From positions 1 to 23,429 of the IMG/VR virus record IMGVR_UViG_3300042564_001299: a stretch of DNA of 23,429 nt, one strand, 5' to 3'. Origin of the DNA: a virus. The position numbers were made by a program, and so were the translations under genes. The notes beneath the pieces were generated by a model. The model had not been told where the DNA came from. It searched no databases and saw only the letters and a program-made list of their open reading frames with translations. Shown piece by piece: positions 2,810 through 23,429 of this stretch (positions are counted from its first letter, which is position 1; each line of letters opens with the position of its first letter).

Positions 2810-2968
2810 TTAACCAACTATGTCTTTCCATTGCCAGTTCGCCCATTGCCGCATTGCATCGCTCGACCATTCATGCTTGCGCCATTTGGCAAGCAGTGCT
2901 GCCTTATCCTTAACCGCGCTGTGCTTATAGCGTATCAGGTCGGTCATATAATCCGTAGCAGTCATCAT
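2810..2968 (-). CDS. Hypothetical 52-residue protein, Trp/Lys rich
   Basis: A short gene between the HTH protein and the terminase small subunit. I chose the ATG at 2968 because GAGG lies 9 bases upstream; an ATG one codon later is equally possible, and a longer start at 2992 lacks this site. Its 5' end overlaps the HTH gene by 44 bp in another frame. The C-terminal half (ALLAKWRKHEWSSDAMRQWA) is amphipathic and rich in Trp and basic residues. No family is recognised. The tight packing in a terminase-directed operon is the main reason to call it a gene. Confidence 0.5.
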   Translation of the reverse strand: MMTATDYMTDLIRYKHSAVKDKAALLAKWRKHEWSSDAMRQWANWQWKDIVG

Positions 2969-3170
2969 CGTTTTCATCCTCAAACGGGTCATAACCTTTT
3001 AGCATGGCATCAACAGCAACAGATATTGGGCCTGTGATGTTTATCTTGCCAGCTTCCATCTTGCGAAGCGTGGTCGCCCCCGTTGTGGGTGACAGGCGCA
3101 ATGCGTCAGCCATGTCGTTCAGGCTGTAGCCAAGGAAATTTCTTGCCAACTTTAAGTCCGATGGTTTCAT
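2925..3170 (-). CDS. Xre-like helix-turn-helix DNA-binding protein
   Basis: An 81-residue protein that is almost entirely one Xre/Cro-type HTH domain: LKLARNFLGYSLNDMADALRLSP (about 6-28) followed by TLRKMEAGKINITGPISVAVDAML (about 34-57), the layout of phage regulators whose recognition helix is followed by W/ME-G and GP. The tail is acidic (EDENDDD). Its ATG overlaps the stop of the DnaA-domain gene (ATGA), so the two are translationally coupled. A role in controlling late or packaging transcription, or in origin binding with its DnaA-like partner, is inference only. Confidence 0.75.
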   Translation of the reverse strand: MKPSDLKLARNFLGYSLNDMADALRLSPTTGATTLRKMEAGKINITGPISVAVDAMLKGYDPFEDENDDDCYGLYDRPDTL

Positions 3171-3409
3171 TCTGCTGCTTCCATTTTTGCTATCTTTTGC
3201 AAGGCGTGAACAATGGTGCTGTGGTCGCGCTTCATGATGCGACCGATTTCTGGTGTGCTATAACCACGTTCACGGAATAGCTTTATACATTCGTAACGGA
3301 TTTCGACCAGCACCTTGAACCGCCTTTTGCCAACAACGTCATGCCTATCATATCCATATTCGGATGCGATGTGGTCAATAATGGTAAGGTTTTTTTCGCG
3401 GGGTGTCAT
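3167..3409 (-). CDS. Stand-alone DnaA domain-IV-like DNA-binding protein
   Basis: An 80-residue protein resembling only the C-terminal DNA-binding domain of the replication initiator DnaA. Residues 53-73 read PEIGRIMKRDHSTIVHALQKI; the DHSTIVHA core matches the DnaA signature DHTTVLHA that contacts the DnaA box, and the preceding SxPEIG helix also fits. There is no AAA+ ATPase domain, so it cannot act as a complete initiator. It could bind DnaA boxes to compete with or recruit the host initiator, or act as a transcription factor; both are inference. The AAGGAA site upstream supports this start. It is coupled to the downstream HTH gene by an ATGA overlap. Confidence 0.8.
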   Translation of the reverse strand: MTPREKNLTIIDHIASEYGYDRHDVVGKRRFKVLVEIRYECIKLFRERGYSTPEIGRIMKRDHSTIVHALQKIAKMEAAE

Positions 3410-3918: not shown

Positions 3919-4152
3919 TTATTTGTTCCAGCAATCAACCATGAAGTTGGCCCAAGCCATCGTGAAGGCATCGTCGGCATCGACAAAAAAGGTAACTGAA
4001 CGATTGTTGGCCTTAACCTTGACGGCGTTGGGTGTGCTGTCTTCTGGAAAATCCTTGAACGTGTCAGGATTGCGAACATCGTCAAAGCAATCGTGCATGG
4101 CCCAAAACTTGTCTTCGGTGCAGTAAACTTCAAAAGCAGCAAAATTCGTCAT
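3919..4152 (-). CDS. Small acidic orphan early protein, 77 residues
   Basis: Unrecognised protein beginning MTNFAAFEVYCTEDKFW, with the ATG chosen at 4152 because AAGGAAACGACC precedes it; upstream in-frame codons lie in the promoter leader. By counting it has about 14 acidic against 7 basic residues, so it is clearly acidic, with Asp-rich stretches (CFDDVRNPD, VDADDAF). It has its own near-consensus promoter at 4198-4226. Small size, strong early promoter and acidity would suit an inhibitor or DNA mimic, but no motif proves this. It is transcribed in the same direction as the 115-residue gene, with which it shares a duplicated leader. Confidence 0.65.
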   Translation of the reverse strand: MTNFAAFEVYCTEDKFWAMHDCFDDVRNPDTFKDFPEDSTPNAVKVKANNRSVTFFVDADDAFTMAWANFMVDCWNK

Positions 4153-4171
4153 GGTCGTTTCCTTGTTTGGC

Positions 4172-4184
4172 GGGGCAGCGCCCC
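4172..4184 (-). promoter_or_regulatory. Short leader hairpin GGGGC-N3-GCCCC
   Basis: A 5-bp GC stem with a 3-base loop (minus strand loop GCT) in the leader between promoter 4198-4226 and the RBS of the 77-residue gene. It is followed by GCCA and the AAGGAA ribosome site, as in the sister leader at 3837. Confidence 0.5.
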
Positions 4185-4197
4185 TTGTTGATGCCCC

Positions 4198-4226
4198 CTT
4201 ATACAAGGGTTGGGTTATCCTGTCAA
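4198..4226 (-). promoter_or_regulatory. Sigma70-type promoter for the 77-residue orphan gene
   Basis: Minus strand: TTGACA (4226-4221), 17-bp spacer, TATAAG (4203-4198), preceded by the A-tract GAAAAAAGGTG. The -35 is perfect and the -10 has five of six matches. It lies back to back with the plus-strand promoter at 4274-4302, across an AT-rich stretch (4229-4270). Confidence 0.88.
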
Positions 4227-4273
4227 CACCTTTTTTCATAAAATAAAACTTTTTTTATATATGAAAAAGCCTC

Positions 4274-4302
4274 TTGACATTGTATCCCGACCTTGCTATA
4301 AG
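4274..4302 (+). promoter_or_regulatory. Sigma70-type promoter for the 78-residue plus-strand gene
   Basis: TTGACA at 4274-4279, a 17-bp spacer and TATAAG at 4297-4302, with GAAAAAGCCTC immediately upstream. The hexamers and spacer length are identical to those of the divergent promoter at 4198-4226, while the spacer sequence differs, so this is not a simple inverted copy. Confidence 0.88.
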
Positions 4303-4344: not shown

Positions 4345-4359
4345 GCTCTTTGACAATTT
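4345..4359 (+). promoter_or_regulatory. BoxA-like antitermination element
   Basis: GCTCTTTGACAATTT differs by one base from the BoxA region of Escherichia coli rRNA leaders (GCTCTTTAACAATTT). BoxA binds NusB-NusE in RNA and promotes antitermination. It lies 10 bases upstream of the start codon and right after a GC hairpin. The match could be coincidental because CTCTTTGACA is also promoter-like, but no suitable -10 follows. Confidence 0.45.
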
Positions 4360-4369
4360 GGAGATTGAA

Positions 4370-4606
4370 ATGACTTTGAAAGACCTACGCGCACGGGCTG
4401 CGTCCATTGGCATCCGTATTGAAGCTGAACGCTTTGACGTTCCAGTGGGGGGCAATTTCTGGGGCTATTGGCTCATTGATGAAAAGACCAACGATGGCGT
4501 CTGGGACGATGAAAATTATTGTTCTGACCATCAGGAATTGAGCCAAGCGTTACGCAAGCTTGAATTTGAACGTGGCGTTAGATGCAAGGCAATGATGCCG
4601 TTCTAG
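4370..4606 (+). CDS. Orphan early protein, 78 residues
   Basis: A lone plus-strand gene between minus-strand genes, with a private promoter (4274-4302), a structured leader and a terminator (4612-4639). I chose the ATG at 4370 because GGAG lies 6 bases upstream; a TTG four codons earlier overlaps that site. The sequence begins MTLKDLRARAASIGIRIEAER, continues with a GGNFWGYWLIDE segment and ends in a basic region. No family is recognised. The self-contained promoter-gene-terminator structure is that of a phage moron or early accessory gene, possibly anti-defence; this is inference from architecture. Confidence 0.72.
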   Translation: MTLKDLRARAASIGIRIEAERFDVPVGGNFWGYWLIDEKTNDGVWDDENYCSDHQELSQALRKLEFERGVRCKAMMPF

Positions 4607-4943: not shown

Positions 4944-5443
4944 TAGTTCATTCCTTCTTTGGCGTTCAGTGATTGCATCAATTCCTCTTTCAGCGCCGCA
5001 AATTCTTCTGGCGTGATGTATTCTGGTTCTTGCTTGGCGATGCGTGGAGCGTGGAAATTATTGACCCGCGCTTGTGCATAGCGGATTTCATCTTCAGCCC
5101 AGCGCACGGCTTCCTGTTCAAAATTGCAGATGAACGGCACAATCTTGGCAGGGTGGTCGCAGCTTCGACGGGCTTGCTCACAAGCGCGTCGCAGTATCGA
5201 CAGTGGGATGTGGTTCACCGTCATGACGGCGGCTTTATACCAAGCTGTCCGTTCGCTCTCCTGCATACCCGATGGAGCGCACAGCATCAGGCATGGCGTC
5301 AATAGTATGATGATTTCCTGCGGCGTGGCCTGTCGGTATTTCTCCTGCGCTGCTTTCAAAGCTTCCAGTGCCGCCCGATATTTCGTGCAGTGCTTGTCTG
5401 GCTGCTCTCTCTGATGTTCCTGCGCTGTCAAATTGCTGTCCAT
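4943..5443 (-). CDS. Unknown replication-region protein overlapping the DUF1376 gene
   Basis: A 166-residue, largely helical protein beginning MDSNLTAQEHQREQPDKHC. A strong site (AAAGGAGCAAAGAA) immediately precedes the ATG and matches the RBS used throughout the phage, so the start is well supported. The first 209 bp overlap the end of the DUF1376 gene out of frame. The middle carries two Cys residues (LLTPCLMLC) and a basic helix (SILRRACEQARRSC). A position right after an initiator-like gene is where helicase loaders often sit, but no P-loop or DnaC motif is present, so the function is unknown. Confidence 0.75.
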   Translation of the reverse strand: MDSNLTAQEHQREQPDKHCTKYRAALEALKAAQEKYRQATPQEIIILLTPCLMLCAPSGMQESERTAWYKAAVMTVNHIPLSILRRACEQARRSCDHPAKIVPFICNFEQEAVRWAEDEIRYAQARVNNFHAPRIAKQEPEYITPEEFAALKEELMQSLNAKEGMN

Positions 5444-6059
5444 TTCTTTGCTCCTTTACCCATTCAGCCTTGAAGGTAAGCCAGCCGCGACTTGTTGCCT
5501 CGCTGATAGCATCCTGCAAATTCCATCCAGCAATGCTGGCTTGGTTCATTAAAGACCGCAATGCGGTTTCCGTCATAGGTGATTTCTTGGCTTTGCGAAC
5601 AGCCATAAAATCATCCCACACCTGTTGCGATACACCGTCAGGCTTCAACACTTTCCCCTTCAGGGGTATATTTGTTTCTTGGTTGTTGGTTATTGGTTGT
5701 TGGTTATTGGTTGGTTGAGCGTCCGTTGAACGTCCGTTGTTCCGACGTTGAGCGGAAGCCCTACCAGCGTTAGATGCTTTCAGTGATTTATCGCGGAAAT
5801 GCGCTATTTCTGCATCGCACCTTGTATGCCCCCATCCACCCTGATTGTCGGCAATGAAAAAGTCTTGCAGCACCTGTTCGACTTCTGCGATGTGGTCACG
5901 CATACCTATTTGTCGTGCAACTTCTGCTGCCGTTCCAACAAGCGCACCGTCTTTCAGGTAATAGACATCAAGCAAACGACGATAAGCCAAATCCTCTAAC
6001 AAGGACAGGTGGCGCGTATGGCTGGCGTAATCGCCAATGTTGAATTGGAAATAGTGCAT
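5235..6059 (-). CDS. DUF1376-domain phage replication protein
   Basis: A 274-residue protein whose N-terminus, HYFQFNIGDYASHTRHLSLLEDLAYRRLLDVYY (residues 2-34), is the hallmark of DUF1376, a winged-helix-like domain of phage initiator-type proteins (analogous in position to lambda O). A low-complexity linker (TNNQQPITNNQETN) and a second region, SQQVWDDFMAVRKAKKSPMT, with GWLTFKAEWV near residue 205, follow as in related proteins. It probably binds the origin and recruits helicase or loader; this is inferred. The last 68 residues are coded in DNA shared with the next gene and look like a poorly constrained tail. Confidence 0.82.
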   Translation of the reverse strand: MHYFQFNIGDYASHTRHLSLLEDLAYRRLLDVYYLKDGALVGTAAEVARQIGMRDHIAEVEQVLQDFFIADNQGGWGHTRCDAEIAHFRDKSLKASNAGRASAQRRNNGRSTDAQPTNNQQPITNNQETNIPLKGKVLKPDGVSQQVWDDFMAVRKAKKSPMTETALRSLMNQASIAGWNLQDAISEATSRGWLTFKAEWVKEQRNGQQFDSAGTSERAARQALHEISGGTGSFESSAGEIPTGHAAGNHHTIDAMPDAVRSIGYAGERTDSLV

Positions 6060-6210: not shown

Positions 6211-6564
6211 CTACTTTGTTTGCCGAAATTCGATTGTCGGAAACAGGGCTTTGAATATCGCCTTGCGTAATGTGAAGTCAGCCGTGACCATGCCCTTCAC
6301 ATCCTCGACGCAATCCTGACCGCCTTCCGTGTAGGAAAAGTCTGGTCGGTAACCACAGCGCCGTCCGTTATCATGCTTCACCTGACTGCCATTGATGATG
6401 AACCAAAACTGCGGCTGGATGACCAAATCGGCAATCACACCCGCAGCCCACAAAATATGCAGTTCATCACAACGCGCAGCTTCACGCTTGCTGTCATGCT
6501 TGTGGCATTGAGCGCAAAATGATTTTTCTGCGCCATATTTAGAGCCGCGACTAAATTTAGCCAT
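6211..6564 (-). CDS. DUF1064 family protein (predicted PD-(D/E)xK-type nuclease fold)
   Basis: A 117-residue protein of the DUF1064 type: an N-terminal KYGAEKSF region, a helix HDSKREAARCDELHIL, then YRPDFSYTEGGQDCVEDVKG (about 78-97), where PDF and EDVKG resemble the acidic and lysine residues of PD-(D/E)xK nucleases. The C-terminus has TADFTLRKAIFKALFP. The family is common in phages, and a nuclease role such as Holliday-junction or flap processing is suspected rather than known. I start at ATG 6564, overlapping the repressor stop by 8 bp; a TTG five codons earlier is possible. A CAQCHKHDS segment adds a possible metal site. Confidence 0.82.
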   Translation of the reverse strand: MAKFSRGSKYGAEKSFCAQCHKHDSKREAARCDELHILWAAGVIADLVIQPQFWFIINGSQVKHDNGRRCGYRPDFSYTEGGQDCVEDVKGMVTADFTLRKAIFKALFPTIEFRQTK

Positions 6565-6763
6565 TGGTCTTGGCTGCAATCAATCCATCCAGCGCCTGTT
6601 CGACAGCAAGATATGCTTCCAACATTGGCGTTGAGCGTTTGCGCTTCCAGTTGCTTAATGTGACCCGACTTAGGCCAGCGGCTTTAGCAAGCTTACCAGC
6701 AGTGATATTGTGTTCAGCAGCGCGTCCGTAAATACGCATAACAGCTTGATGGCTTAACGTCAT
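6557..6763 (-). CDS. Small helix-turn-helix repressor-like protein
   Basis: A 68-residue protein with one HTH: ITAGKLAKAAGLSRVTLSNWKRKRSTP (about 20-46), a Cro/Xre-like layout with Trp-x-Lys-x-Arg at the end of the recognition helix. The ATG at 6763 follows AAAGGAACCTAC; an upstream in-frame start at 6850 would run through the promoter and is rejected. It is the first gene of the leftward arm and lies beside a palindrome that carries both divergent -35 boxes. It is therefore the best candidate for a protein controlling both arms, probably including itself. No dimerisation or cleavage domain is visible, so it is more Cro-like than CI-like. Confidence 0.8.
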   Translation of the reverse strand: MTLSHQAVMRIYGRAAEHNITAGKLAKAAGLSRVTLSNWKRKRSTPMLEAYLAVEQALDGLIAAKTNG

Positions 6764-6791
6764 GTAGGTTCCTTTTGTTAGGTGTTGTGAG

Positions 6792-6820
6792 CCTATAAAA
6801 AAATGCTTTACATATGTAAA
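6792..6820 (-). promoter_or_regulatory. Leftward promoter for the HTH gene and replication arm
   Basis: Minus strand: TTTACA (6820-6815), 17-bp spacer, TATAGG (6797-6792). The -35 hexamer is the right half of the palindrome at 6807-6820. The repressor ATG is about 35 bases downstream of the expected start point. Confidence 0.75.
6807..6820. promoter_or_regulatory. Perfect 14-bp palindrome, putative operator
   Basis: TTTACATATGTAAA is a perfect palindrome whose two halves are the -35 boxes of the rightward and leftward promoters. A dimeric HTH protein bound here would block both. A partial relative, TTTACATATAATTAA, lies at the promoter 10695-10723. Confidence 0.7.
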
Positions 6821-6835
6821 TACGTCTTTTAGAAA
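6807..6835 (+). promoter_or_regulatory. Rightward promoter for the recombination operon
   Basis: TTTACA (6807-6812), 17-bp spacer, TAGAAA (6830-6835; four of six matches), preceded by an A-tract (TAAAAAAATGC). The spacer ends in ACGTCTTTT like that of promoter 10695-10723. The weaker -10 suggests dependence on derepression or an activator. Confidence 0.6.
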
Positions 6836-6856
6836 AAACACAAGGAGCAAACAATC

Positions 6857-7066
6857 ATGGACATTAAAACCTGCACAATTTGCAGCTTTGAATTGACATC
6901 AACCTTCTGTTGCCCAGCTTGCGATGCGGCTGACGCGATTGTTGAGGCTGGTGGTTGTCACCCAAATTTTAAAGAAGCGTTGGCTGAAAAAATCGGCAAT
7001 CTCCTTACCGCTGAAGATTGGCACACAACCATCGACCTTCGCAAAATTTATCCACGATTTTATTAA
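6857..7066 (+). CDS. Small zinc-ribbon-like protein
   Basis: A 69-residue protein, first gene of the rightward operon, preceded by CAAGGAGCAA. The N-terminus has CTIC (residues 6-9) and CCPAC (18-22), a two-knuckle Cys arrangement that would bind one zinc ion; two of the Cys residues are adjacent. The rest is helical (FKEALAEKIGNLL) with a DWHTTIDLRKIYPRFY tail. No named family is recognised. As the first early gene it may act in regulation or host takeover, but this is a guess from position. Confidence 0.7.
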   Translation: MDIKTCTICSFELTSTFCCPACDAADAIVEAGGCHPNFKEALAEKIGNLLTAEDWHTTIDLRKIYPRFY

Positions 7067-7452: not shown

Positions 7453-8025
7453 ATGAGTGAAGACAAAATCTGTGCTGCATACGTTGCCGCATTTGCCGAA
7501 TTGGAAGCTGCGACCAAGACAGCCAGCAACCCGCATTTTAAATCCAAATACGCTGACCTTCCGACTGTAATTGATGCTATCAAGCCGCACCTTGCGAAAC
7601 ACGGTCTTGCATTTATGCAGATGCCAAAGCCAAGCGAAGGCGGCATATCAATTGAAACCATCCTGATACACAGCAGCGGCGACAAGCTTTCGATGGGCGT
7701 ATTGTTCGTGCCAGCCAATAAGCATGACGCACATGGTTACGGGTCGGCCTTAACTTATGCACGGCGATATGCGCTGCAAACTTGCTTTGGTTTGCCAACA
7801 GAAGACGATGACGGCAACGCAGCGGTTAAATCCCAGCAGCCAGCGCCAGCAAAGCCAATCACGCAGGAGCAATTCGCAGTGCTGCAAGATTTAATTGACC
7901 GCACAGGCACTGACGTAGCTGTCATGGCAGCGCACTATAAAGTGCAAGCCATCGCAATGCTTCCATCGAATTTGTTTGAAGCAGCAAAGACGGCATTAGA
8001 ACGGAAACTGCCAAATGAGGGTTGA
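7453..8025 (+). CDS. erf: Erf-family single-strand annealing recombinase
   Basis: A 190-residue protein with the ERF family signature: NPHFKSKYADL (26-36), a GL-F-Q strand, LIHSSGDKL, GSALTYARRY (97-106) and EDDDG (117-121). Erf proteins form rings on single-stranded DNA and anneal complementary strands during phage recombination and genome circularisation. The start follows AAGGAGCAAAA. The C-terminal 65 residues (Pro/Gln-rich linker, then a helical domain) fit the usual two-domain layout. The gene overlaps the YqaJ-type exonuclease by 11 bp, giving a lambda Red-like exonuclease/annealase pair. Confidence 0.92.
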   Translation: MSEDKICAAYVAAFAELEAATKTASNPHFKSKYADLPTVIDAIKPHLAKHGLAFMQMPKPSEGGISIETILIHSSGDKLSMGVLFVPANKHDAHGYGSALTYARRYALQTCFGLPTEDDDGNAAVKSQQPAPAKPITQEQFAVLQDLIDRTGTDVAVMAAHYKVQAIAMLPSNLFEAAKTALERKLPNEG

Positions 8026-8656
8026 TGTCGAACAGCGCAGCGAAGATTGGTATGCTGCACGATGCGGTTCGCTGGGGGCGTCACAGGTTGCTGACGCCCT
8101 ATCGCGCACCAAAAGCGGTTACAGCACCACCAGAACCAATTTGCGCGTTAAGCTGGCACTGGAGCGGCTGACAGGCAAGCAAGCGGCTGGCTTTGTTAGT
8201 GCGGCAATGCAGCATGGCATTGACACCGAAGCTGAAGCCAAAATAGCCTATTCGTTCGACCAAAACGTAACCGTTACGGAAACGGGCTTGGTCAGGCATT
8301 CAAGCATCCCGTGGACGCACTGTTCACCCGATGGTCTTGTTGGCGACGAAGGGCTTGTCGAAATCAAGTGCCGCCAACCAGCAGGGCATCTTGAAACGCT
8401 AACGACTGGCGAAATACCATCGCAGTATGTGACGCAAATCAACTGGCAGCTTGCTTGTATGCCAGAGCGGAAGTGGGTCGATTACGTTTGTTACAACCCA
8501 GACTTTCCCGAAGACCTCAAACTTTTCATCAAAAGGCATCATCGCAATGACGAACAAATCATGGAATTGGAAAAATCTGTTTGCGAATTTCTCGCAGAAG
8601 TCGAAGCCGACCTTGCAGCCATCAACAGCATTAGAGGAAGGTCTACGGTTGGCTAA
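8015..8656 (+). CDS. YqaJ/lambda-exonuclease family recombination nuclease
   Basis: A 213-residue protein with the YqaJ viral recombinase layout: EQRSEDWYAARCGSLGASQ (6-24), HGIDTEAEAKIAY (67-79, Glu72), CSPDGLVGDEGLVEIKC (103-119; Asp106, Glu116 and Lys118 as the PD-(D/E)xK core), and YVTQINWQLAC. These enzymes resect double-stranded ends 5' to 3' to give single strands for the partner annealase, here Erf. It overlaps Erf upstream and the next small gene downstream, so all three are coupled. Length and active-site residues look intact. Confidence 0.92.
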   Translation: MRVDVEQRSEDWYAARCGSLGASQVADALSRTKSGYSTTRTNLRVKLALERLTGKQAAGFVSAAMQHGIDTEAEAKIAYSFDQNVTVTETGLVRHSSIPWTHCSPDGLVGDEGLVEIKCRQPAGHLETLTTGEIPSQYVTQINWQLACMPERKWVDYVCYNPDFPEDLKLFIKRHHRNDEQIMELEKSVCEFLAEVEADLAAINSIRGRSTVG

Positions 8657-10694: not shown

Positions 10695-10723
10695 TTTACA
10701 TATAATTAACGTCTTTTTATAAC
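10695..10723 (+). promoter_or_regulatory. Sigma70-type promoter for the small-gene cluster
   Basis: TTTACA (10695-10700), 17-bp spacer and TATAAC (10718-10723), preceded by GAAAAAAGTGC. The stretch GCTTTACATAT...ACGTCTTTT resembles the rightward promoter at 6807-6835, suggesting control by the same HTH protein. The -10 is followed by GGGGCATCAAC as in the two minus-strand orphan-gene promoters. Confidence 0.82.
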
Positions 10724-20775: not shown

Positions 20776-23429
20776 TTGCGTCCTCCCGAATGTCAGGCAA
20801 CCCGTCACCATCCCACCTGTCCATCAATTCATAGGATTTGCCAGTGTTCTTGGCGACTTGATACAGCACGTTATACATCTCATTTCGCATATTGGCTATG
20901 CCGTCGGCAGTATCTGCGCTGTTGCTTGCCAAGCCAGTTTGGTTGCCGTCAAAGACCAACCCTGCGCCCGTGGTGGCAATTTCTGCACTGTTTGCTGCTT
21001 GCGCCCCAAGTGTTTCACTAAGGCTTGCTGACAGCCACGCACGGATACGGGCAACTTCAAGCGCAGACGTTGCCGAACCAAGTGTCGCTTCTTCAATCGA
21101 ACGGCTAAGTTCTGGCAGCTTACCAAGTGCATCCAGATTGCCTGTTCGTGCCTGTGCGGTCAGCGTGGCAAACTGCGCCTTCAGCAATACTGACGATGAC
21201 GATGCGTTAATGCCACGCAGACGATTGATTTCGTCCACAACTGTTTGGCTGACGCTTGCCAGTGTTTCGGCGTATTTCTGCATTGCTTGTGCAGCGTCTT
21301 CGGCGGCTTTTTCTTGTATCTTGGCGGCGTCTTCAGCGGCCTTGGCAGCGGCGGCATCTGCTTCTGCCTTGGCTTGCGCGGCCCAGATTTGCTGCTTCAG
21401 TCCAACAAGGGTAGCGTCAATAGTTTCAAGTTCAATCGCCCGACGCGCAGCAAGCGCCTCAACAGCAAAACCCTGTGCGTCAAGCAATTCGATTTCGAGC
21501 AAACGGCGCTCTTTTGCGACAGCCAAGATTTGTTCAGCAGCCCGTGACTGTTCTTCAGCAGCAGCCCGTGCAGCTTCAGCGGCAGCATCATTTGCAGCCT
21601 TGGCATCTTGGGCAGCGTAAATCTGCAACTGCAATCCACGCAAGCTTGCGTCGATGGTTTCCAGTTCAACAGCGCGACGGGCAGCGAGTGCTTCAACCGC
21701 GAAGCCCTGTGCTTCCAGTAGGTCGATTTCCATAGAACGACGTTCACGGGAAAGGGCCAAGGTTTGTTCAGCCAGCCTTTCTTGTTCCGCAGCCATTGTT
21801 CTGGCAGCTTCTGCCGCTGCATTGCTTGCGTTTTTGGCATCTTCAGCCGCATAAATCTGAAGTTGCAAGCCGCGCAATGTTTCATCAAGCGCCGCCAATT
21901 CCAATTCGCGCCGCGCAGCCAATGCTTCGGATGATTTGCCCAGTGCTTCAAGCAACTGTATTTCAAGTTCGACCCTGTTTCTTTGCAAGTCAGCAGCAGC
22001 CTTTGCCACTTCCGCCGCAGCACTGGCGGCAGCGTTCATTGCATCGTTTGCAGCCTTAGCGTCTTCAGCAGCCCAAATTTGCTTCTGCAAGCCACGCAAT
22101 GTTTCATCCATTGCTTCCAATTCAAGCTGACGCCTTGCGACCAGCGCGTCGGTTGCAAAGCCCTGCGCTTCAAGAAGGTCGATTTCAAGCATACGCCTAT
22201 CTCTGGCTAATGCCAAAGCCGCTTCAGCCAATACAGCCGCTTCTTCAGCAGCCTTTTCCTGTGCGTCGGCCAATGCCTGTGTCGCCTTTGCAGCGTCTTG
22301 GGCGGTATACACTTGCTCTTGCAACCCACGAAGGCTTGCATCCATGCTTTCAAGTTCAAGCGCACGTTGTGCAGCCAAAGCGCCAGCAGCATTGCCCTGC
22401 GCTTCCATTAGTTCAATTTCTAATTCACGGCGCGGCCTATTAGCTTCAAATATCGCTTTGGCTTGCTTGATGGCATACAGTTCTTCAAGCTTGGCATAAT
22501 CAGCGGCGGACGCGCCAGCTTCGCCAAAAATGACCTTCAGCTTTTCCATTTCGACGGAAAGTTCATCAAGGCTTGATTGCAGCGGGTCGCTTTGGCTTTT
22601 CAGGTCTTTGAACACTTGGTCGAACTTCAGTGCCTTCTGCACTTGCCCATTCAAGTCGTTGCCAGCGCGAATGAGCGTTTGCGCCCCTGCGCTGATACCT
22701 GTGACGATGCCTTGTTGGATTGCCAGTTGCGTGACGTATGCAACAGCCGCCGCTTCGTCTGTGCCAAAATTCTTAACGCCCGAACCCTTAGTGCGGCCAG
22801 CGCCAGTTGGGTCAACAACGTAATCCTTTTTACGCATACCAAGGCTGACCTTGACGTTACCACCCAATGTGCCGCCAAGTTGTTCTGCAACGCTGCCCAA
22901 GCCTTTTAATAGGCCATTCGCCATATTGTCAGCGATACCCTTTAGCTGTGCGCTATTGCCCGTCAAAGTGCGCTGCATAGCGCCGCCAGCAATCTGGGTA
23001 AGCGTTACGCTGCCCGTTTTGGTTTTGGTCAACAAGCCACCAACAAGACCGCCAAGCAAGCCACCAGCAATTGAACCCAGCGGCCCAGCAAGAGAGCCAA
23101 GCGCCTTTCCAAATACCTTGCCGCCAATGTCCTGCAATCCCTTGGTCAAAAACTCCTTGCCAAGCGCACCACCAACAGCGCCACCAACAGCACCACCAGC
23201 GCCGCCGCCAACCATCTGACCAATTCGAGCATTGGCAAGAACGGTGGGAAGTGAAGTAAGAAATCCGCTAAAGGTGTCTTGCAAATCCTTCGGCAAATCG
23301 TCGAAAATCGTCTTCAGGTCTTTTTTCAAATCTGGGGCAACGATGTTTATTTCTTTGCCAAGGTTAGCCAAGAATGAACCCGCGCCGCCAAAAAGTTCGT
23401 CGGTCAGGTCAATCAGGCCAGCAATCGTT
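20762..23429 (-). CDS. Tape-measure-like tail protein with 78-residue repeats (5' end outside window)
   Basis: The frame is open to the right edge (TIAGLIDLTDELFGGAGSF lies upstream of the TTG at 23371), so the true start is beyond the window; about 888 residues are visible. First comes a Gly/Ala-rich hydrophobic region (MVGGGAGGAVGGAVGGALG, then LGSLAGPLGSIAGGLLGGLV), typical of tape-measure membrane segments, then a long alpha-helical coiled coil built from five copies of a repeat beginning E-I-x-L-L/M-E/D-A-x-G, and a C-terminal domain (ETLASVSQTVVDEINRLRGI, and NSADTADGIANMRNEMYNVL). Tape measures set tail length and enter the cell at infection. An internal virion protein of a short-tailed phage is the alternative. 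Confidence 0.8.
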   Translation of the reverse strand, partial: TIAGLIDLTDELFGGAGSFLANLGKEINIVAPDLKKDLKTIFDDLPKDLQDTFSGFLTSLPTVLANARIGQMVGGGAGGAVGGAVGGALGKEFLTKGLQDIGGKVFGKALGSLAGPLGSIAGGLLGGLVGGLLTKTKTGSVTLTQIAGGAMQRTLTGNSAQLKGIADNMANGLLKGLGSVAEQLGGTLGGNVKVSLGMRKKDYVVDPTGAGRTKGSGVKNFGTDEAAAVAYVTQLAIQQGIVTGISAGAQTLIRAGNDLNGQVQKALKFDQVFKDLKSQSDPLQSSLDELSVEMEKLKVIFGEAGASAADYAKLEELYAIKQAKAIFEANRPRRELEIELMEAQGNAAGALAAQRALELESMDASLRGLQEQVYTAQDAAKATQALADAQEKAAEEAAVLAEAALALARDRRMLEIDLLEAQGFATDALVARRQLELEAMDETLRGLQKQIWAAEDAKAANDAMNAAASAAAEVAKAAADLQRNRVELEIQLLEALGKSSEALAARRELELAALDETLRGLQLQIYAAEDAKNASNAAAEAARTMAAEQERLAEQTLALSRERRSMEIDLLEAQGFAVEALAARRAVELETIDASLRGLQLQIYAAQDAKAANDAAAEAARAAAEEQSRAAEQILAVAKERRLLEIELLDAQGFAVEALAARRAIELETIDATLVGLKQQIWAAQAKAEADAAAAKAAEDAAKIQEKAAEDAAQAMQKYAETLASVSQTVVDEINRLRGINASSSSVLLKAQFATLTAQARTGNLDALGKLPELSRSIEEATLGSATSALEVARIRAWLSASLSETLGAQAANSAEIATTGAGLVFDGNQTGLASNSADTADGIANMRNEMYNVLYQVAKNTGKSYELMDRWDGDGLPDIREDASDYY
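21263..22420 (-). repeat. Tandem 234-bp coding repeats in the tape measure
   Basis: Units begin at 22420, 22186, 21964, 21730 and 21496. Four intervals are 234, 222, 234 and 234 bp (78, 74, 78 and 78 residues). Each unit reads E-I-x-L-L/M-E/D-A-x-G, then AL-A-R--E---(M/I/L)D--L-GL, then Q-(I/V)(W/Y)-A(E/Q)DAK, then an Ala/Glu coiled coil. The fifth unit is incomplete. Confidence 0.85.

Follow-up and report, generated by a model that had tools for sequence, protein, structure and literature searches.

A perfect 14-bp palindrome, TTTACATATGTAAA, lies at positions 6807-6820 between the two divergent gene arms of an uncultured phage, and it is probably the single operator of the adjacent 68-residue helix-turn-helix (HTH) protein, which would regulate its own gene through this site. 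Each half-site of the palindrome also reads as the -35 box of a sigma-70-type promoter, the two promoters being divergent, and occupation of the one site would repress both arms. The 14-bp dyad, the two promoters, and the 68-aa protein would form a minimal, conserved control point between the arms of this phage group. All positions refer to the window, i.e., the whole stretch of 23,429 nucleotides that was analysed.

A palindrome containing two predicted -35 boxes

The palindrome is located in a 93-bp intergenic region that separates the HTH gene and the left (replication) arm from the right (recombination) arm, which carries Erf, YqaJ, NinB, and SSB. The features of this region are as follows (L numbers denote related loci, described below).

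5235..6059, minus strand: DUF1376 primosomal/O-like replication protein, left arm
6211..6579, minus strand: DUF1064 / Holliday-junction-resolvase-like protein, second left-arm gene
6557..6763, minus strand: HTH_3/Xre protein, 68 aa, first left-arm gene, proposed autoregulator
6792..6797 (read 6797-6792), minus strand: -10 box TATAGG of the leftward promoter-like site, 17-bp spacer
6797..6803, plus strand: A-tract directly upstream of the rightward -35 box in a UP-element-like position, doubling as the T-tract before the leftward -10 box
6807..6812, plus strand: -35 box TTTACA of the rightward promoter-like site
6807..6820, no strand: proposed operator, perfect palindrome TTTACATATGTAAA; the conserved core reaches 6806-6821
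6815..6820 (read 6820-6815), minus strand: -35 box TTTACA of the leftward promoter-like site
6830..6835, plus strand: -10 box TAGAAA of the rightward promoter-like site, 17-bp spacer
6842..6847, plus strand: Shine-Dalgarno sequence AAGGAG of the first right-arm gene
6857..7066, plus strand: 69-aa cysteine-rich protein, first right-arm gene; absent or replaced in L019, L021, L024, and L025
7453..8025, plus strand: Erf single-strand annealing protein, right arm
8015..8656, plus strand: YqaJ-type exonuclease, right arm

The palindrome, read directly from the sequence, occurs as a single exact copy in the window, where the next best match has two mismatches. A sequence-only reading had described the palindrome, a -35 box in each of its halves (TTTACA-17-TAGAAA to the right, TTTACA-17-TATAGG to the left), and its position between a small HTH gene with the replication arm and the recombination arm. 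The sequence and the gene content bear this out, and both sites are promoter-like and conserved.

Dinucleotide shuffles of the intergenic region contain a perfect palindrome of at least 14 bp in 1.0% of cases, and 1.9% of them have a promoter-like site facing each way. The region has no other sites of such quality (5/6 at -35 and 4/6 at -10) in either direction. One other 14-bp perfect palindrome exists in the window, at 21638, within coding sequence. The promoters at the palindrome are both missed by a stricter scan of the window, since neither -10 box ends in T; by the borrowed consensus that was used, both match at 4/6 positions. The predicted rightward transcription start, at about 6842, coincides with the edge of the Shine-Dalgarno sequence and would leave a very short leader in this phage. 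The 4/6 -10 boxes without a final T and the start at the Shine-Dalgarno edge weaken the interpretation as an operator. In this phage, -10 boxes commonly end in a base other than T (sites at 4226, 4274, and 10695), and the same holds for most alphaproteobacterial promoters (PMC8407463). Taken from the single sequence alone, the case for the palindrome and its promoters is moderate. The doubt that such single-sequence statistics leave is removed by the comparison of 20 distinct related sequences, in which all but one of the 16 core positions are invariant.

A replication origin at the palindrome was considered and rejected: the GC skew flips sign nearby, but so do the coding strand and the AT skew.

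Conservation in close relatives

Querying IMG/VR with the 68-aa HTH protein recovered 27 close relatives (L001-L026 and L029), referred to here as clade A. L001, which matches the window exactly over the compared block, is possibly the same virus. With the window included, the set provides 20 distinct 66-bp blocks. Across these, 15 of the 16 positions of the core, ATTTACAT[A/T]TGTAAAG, are invariant, and the sole variable position is one central base. Bases 6821 and 6806, outside the 14-bp palindrome, and one central base are thus fixed as well as the two TTTACA arms. Over this set of 20, the adjacent HTH gene varies at 51 of its 64 third codon positions, with a largest pairwise difference of 60% at such positions. 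This difference between a nearly fixed core and variable third positions next door supports an operator. In 19/20 sequences the left -10 box reads TAT[AG]N and then G; its last base is the exact border of conservation, and variation is at background level right after it. The right -10 box is mostly YAKAAA, with A invariant at positions 2, 4, 5, and 6. The A-tract at 6797-6803 is present in all relatives, including the distant groups described below.

The -35/-10 block is retained where its surroundings are exchanged. In L002-L004, L006, L017, and L026 the left leader has been swapped for another, longer one, and in L019, L021, L024, and L025 a 118-aa protein or Erf itself takes the place of the first right-hand gene; the -10 box there is the same and is followed by a normal leader. 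Judging from these exchanges, the block acts as a unit independent of the neighbouring genes. In L019, an inverted repeat, GTCTTGC-ATAAAAAAA-GCAAGAC, spans the right -10 box about 70-100 bp to the right of the HTH start; it is absent in L021.

Exactly one TTTACAWWTGTAAA is found per record in 14/14 related records searched. This single copy, in the window and in all of those records, excludes a lambda-like multi-operator arrangement and agrees with the earlier description of one site in place of the several in lambda. When the whole viral collection was scanned for the palindrome with the T-tract, 27 stretches were found, 26 of them in contigs already recovered through the HTH protein; this co-occurrence also supports an operator for that protein. 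The palindrome is a feature of one clade and a real, strongly selected regulatory element.

Other promoters in the phage and the constraint on the palindrome arms

A second divergent region, at 4200-4302, has the consensus TTGACA-17-TATAAG on each strand, at 4226 (minus) and 4274 (plus). TTTATATATGAAAA at 4254-4267 within this region, which differs from the palindrome at two positions, was rejected as a second operator copy. It is not kept as a palindrome in relatives, and 0.85 matches at three or fewer mismatches are expected in the window by chance. The first codons of a 106-aa ORF (3919-4239) overlap the leftward promoter of this region, and the true start of this ORF is probably the internal MTNF. 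A further promoter-like site, TTTACA-17-TATAAC, is located in a gap between right-arm ORFs (10695-10723, plus strand) and is perhaps a second right-arm promoter. TTTACA is thus probably used as a -35 box elsewhere in this phage too.

The promoter at 4226 is informative for a simpler explanation of the palindrome, namely that the symmetry arises from two -35 boxes placed head to head, with no repressor on the dyad and with polymerases that exclude each other, so that the switch works by competition. Both spacers have the ideal length of 17 bp and are conserved, and in E. coli polymerases are known to compete at divergent promoters (PMC12825309). A sigma factor alone, however, would permit or favour TTGACA. 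TTGACA and TTTACA interchange among relatives at the 4226 promoter, whereas both palindrome arms are always TTTACA, and never TTGACA, in the 20 sequences. More than sigma recognition therefore probably constrains the arms, and the invariance of 6821, 6806, and one central base likewise speaks against back-to-back promoters alone. Promoter competition without a repressor is unlikely, and this pattern of substitution is the chief reason to think that something besides the sigma factor reads the dyad.

The HTH protein as candidate regulator

The 68-aa protein matches PF01381 (HTH_3) with 28.1 bits against a Pfam cut-off of 23. Its predicted structure is an all-helical HTH fold of four helices (pLDDT 95). 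The best fold matches in the PDB are P22 c2, DdrO, SinR, and controller proteins (Foldseek; lowest E 4e-3, TM about 0.7). The DNA-binding domain of the P22 c2 repressor ranks first by fold (TM about 0.68-0.70; Foldseek E 4e-3, weak by E-value alone) and is also, by sequence profile (E 2.8e-5), the nearest relative with a solved structure. The protein had been called Cro-like; an HTH protein of 68 residues is indeed present, but the label is too specific for a member of HTH_3/Xre that is closest to the P22 c2 repressor domain. The invariant V34 of the HTH protein corresponds in the alignment to Val33 of the P22 c2 repressor, a residue located among thymine methyl groups (PMC3865217). Central operator base pairs are read indirectly by the P22 and 434 repressors, via DNA shape (PMC3317979), and the variable centre of the core fits such reading. 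No relatives of the HTH protein were found in a pattern scan of 84,980 sequenced genomes, nor among 50,697 phage records. Its C-terminus occurs in two unrelated versions (AAKTNG/KG or SEKI...) in L010-L018, L020, L024, and L026, which suggests recombination inside the HTH gene.

The reader of the dyad might instead be a host regulator or another phage protein, which would make both arms responsive to the host's condition. Besides the 68-aa protein, the phage encodes another HTH protein (2925-3170) and one that resembles DnaA domain IV (3167-3409), and distant relatives retain the HTH gene and its recognition helix without the palindrome. Against this, all clade members tested have one copy per record, located beside this HTH gene, and the additional sites expected for a regulator of several phage genes are not seen. 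A regulator other than the 68-aa protein is quite improbable. The protein encoded at 3167-3409 (minus strand) is small and consists of the DnaA C-terminal (domain IV) HTH only.

Distant relatives without the palindrome

More distant HTH proteins form group B (L030-L053) and group C (L027 and L054-L081). They are 43-55% identical and have the same RVTLSNWK recognition helix. Both groups retain the divergent layout and an A-tract before a -35-like TTTTAA. Despite the same layout and helix, the clade A palindrome is absent from both, so that its conservation across related phages holds in the 27 close relatives and does not extend to the two distant groups. This leaves two possibilities: a shift of the operator between the groups, or an HTH protein whose site is not the palindrome. 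This absence is the main weakness of the interpretation of the palindrome as an operator.

In a search for conserved dyads, clade A gave the palindrome, and groups B and C gave ATAAAAAnnGCTTTTAAT. The latter overlaps the left -10 box and the right -35 box, about one helical turn away from the position of the clade A palindrome. It is a lead only, as A-tracts facing T-tracts look dyadic by nature. One tentative picture, possible though doubtful, is that of a lysogeny-free module in a large group of uncultured phages, in which a bare P22-c2-like domain lowers both arms via one dyad. The dyad would have shifted by about one helical turn between clades (ATAAAAAnnGCTTTTAAT in B and C as against TTTACATATGTAAA in A), with the recognition helix and the divergent promoters retained. 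The three clades would then be a natural series for the movement of an operator under an unchanged protein reading head.

A perfect DnaA box, TTATCCACA, follows directly after the T-tract in the HTH leader in 8 of 36 group B and C loci checked (L030, L033, L046, L063, L070, and L074-L076) and is usually the only copy in the locus. In group B (L030-L053), the intergenic region contains a direct repeat, TTGTAAAC, with 11-bp spacing (TTTTGTAAACCCCTTGTAAAC), near the predicted right start.

Gene arms and the question of lysogeny

In G006, a relative of 39.6 kb, the HTH gene is the first of an arm that spans about 33 kb and has nearly all genes in the same direction (DUF1064, DUF1376, MazG, a DnaA domain IV-like protein, terminase, portal, tail-region genes, and endolysin). 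The other arm is about 4 kb long and carries Erf, YqaJ, HNH, NinB, and SSB. Since internal promoters exist, the palindrome need not drive the whole long arm.

A P22 c2-like DNA-binding domain and a divergent layout would also fit a lysogeny switch, in which the HTH protein would maintain the prophage of a temperate phage that persists without an integrase, e.g., as a plasmid. The absence of an integrase had been noted in the window, and the same holds more widely: tyrosine integrase (PF00589) and serine recombinase (PF00239) were each found in 0/28 records and an S24-type repressor in 0/20, in records that are classed as linear and may be incomplete. These results fit a role other than lysogeny. 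The HTH protein is also a bare 68-aa domain, its gene heads an arm with replication, packaging, structural, and lysis genes, and the scan of sequenced genomes gave no relative of it. A lysogeny switch is very unlikely.

Proposed mechanism and comparison with known systems

In the mechanism that we favour, with the HTH protein as autoregulator, host RNA polymerase would start transcription both ways upon phage entry, into the recombination arm on the right and the HTH/replication arm on the left. As HTH dimers build up, they would cover both -35 boxes. Both arms would then be lowered together, and the HTH protein would limit its own synthesis. With no detectable lysogeny module, we infer a dose-limiting or timing feedback and not a two-state lysogeny switch.

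The P22 c2 repressor has the same HTH core (with V33 and V34 aligned) and is closest by both profile and fold. The protein described here differs in having 68 aa without the C-terminal half and one site in place of several, and no integrase or partner repressor is detected. In lambda OR, divergent early promoters are likewise under HTH_3-type proteins. Three operators and two repressors (CI and Cro) operate there, whereas one operator-like site and one candidate regulator are found here, with no CI-type partner detected.

The compact arrangement is not without precedent, since PY54 Cro binds a single 16-bp palindrome, and this binding is proven (PMC4488713). As in PY54, a small HTH protein is associated with one palindromic site between divergent genes, with binding to the operator-like site proposed in the present case. 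In PY54, a prophage repressor gene lies opposite cro and that side is blocked by Cro (PMC4488713). Here the opposite gene encodes the 69-aa cysteine-rich protein, the 118-aa protein, or Erf, none of which is a prophage repressor, and both -35 boxes are part of the dyad itself. In E. coli, too, bidirectional promoters such as acrA/acrR use symmetric DNA for two directions, and the autoregulator AcrR represses both (PMC12825309), as is proposed for the HTH protein. The element shared in acrA/acrR is the -10 element; here it is the -35 boxes that are adjacent, within a single dyad that is flanked by a -10 box on either side. Each part has a precedent in PY54 Cro or AcrR, and the combination, with the apparent lack of a lysogeny module, is a compact variant and not a new kind of switch. 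If the mechanism is correct, it shows how a domain of the CI/Cro type can act as a simple governor where a phage gives no sign of lysogeny. The intergenic region would then also be a compact promoter part for two directions, controlled at a single site.

Host hints and a conserved ORF

The terminase is nearest to that of Caulobacter phage DMCA (60%) and also has one 39% match in a metagenome-assembled Sulfurimonas contig; these matches are insufficient for naming a host. At 4358-4606, an 82-aa ORF on the plus strand lies inside the minus-strand arm. It has no PHROG match and is 52-100% identical across groups A, B, and C.
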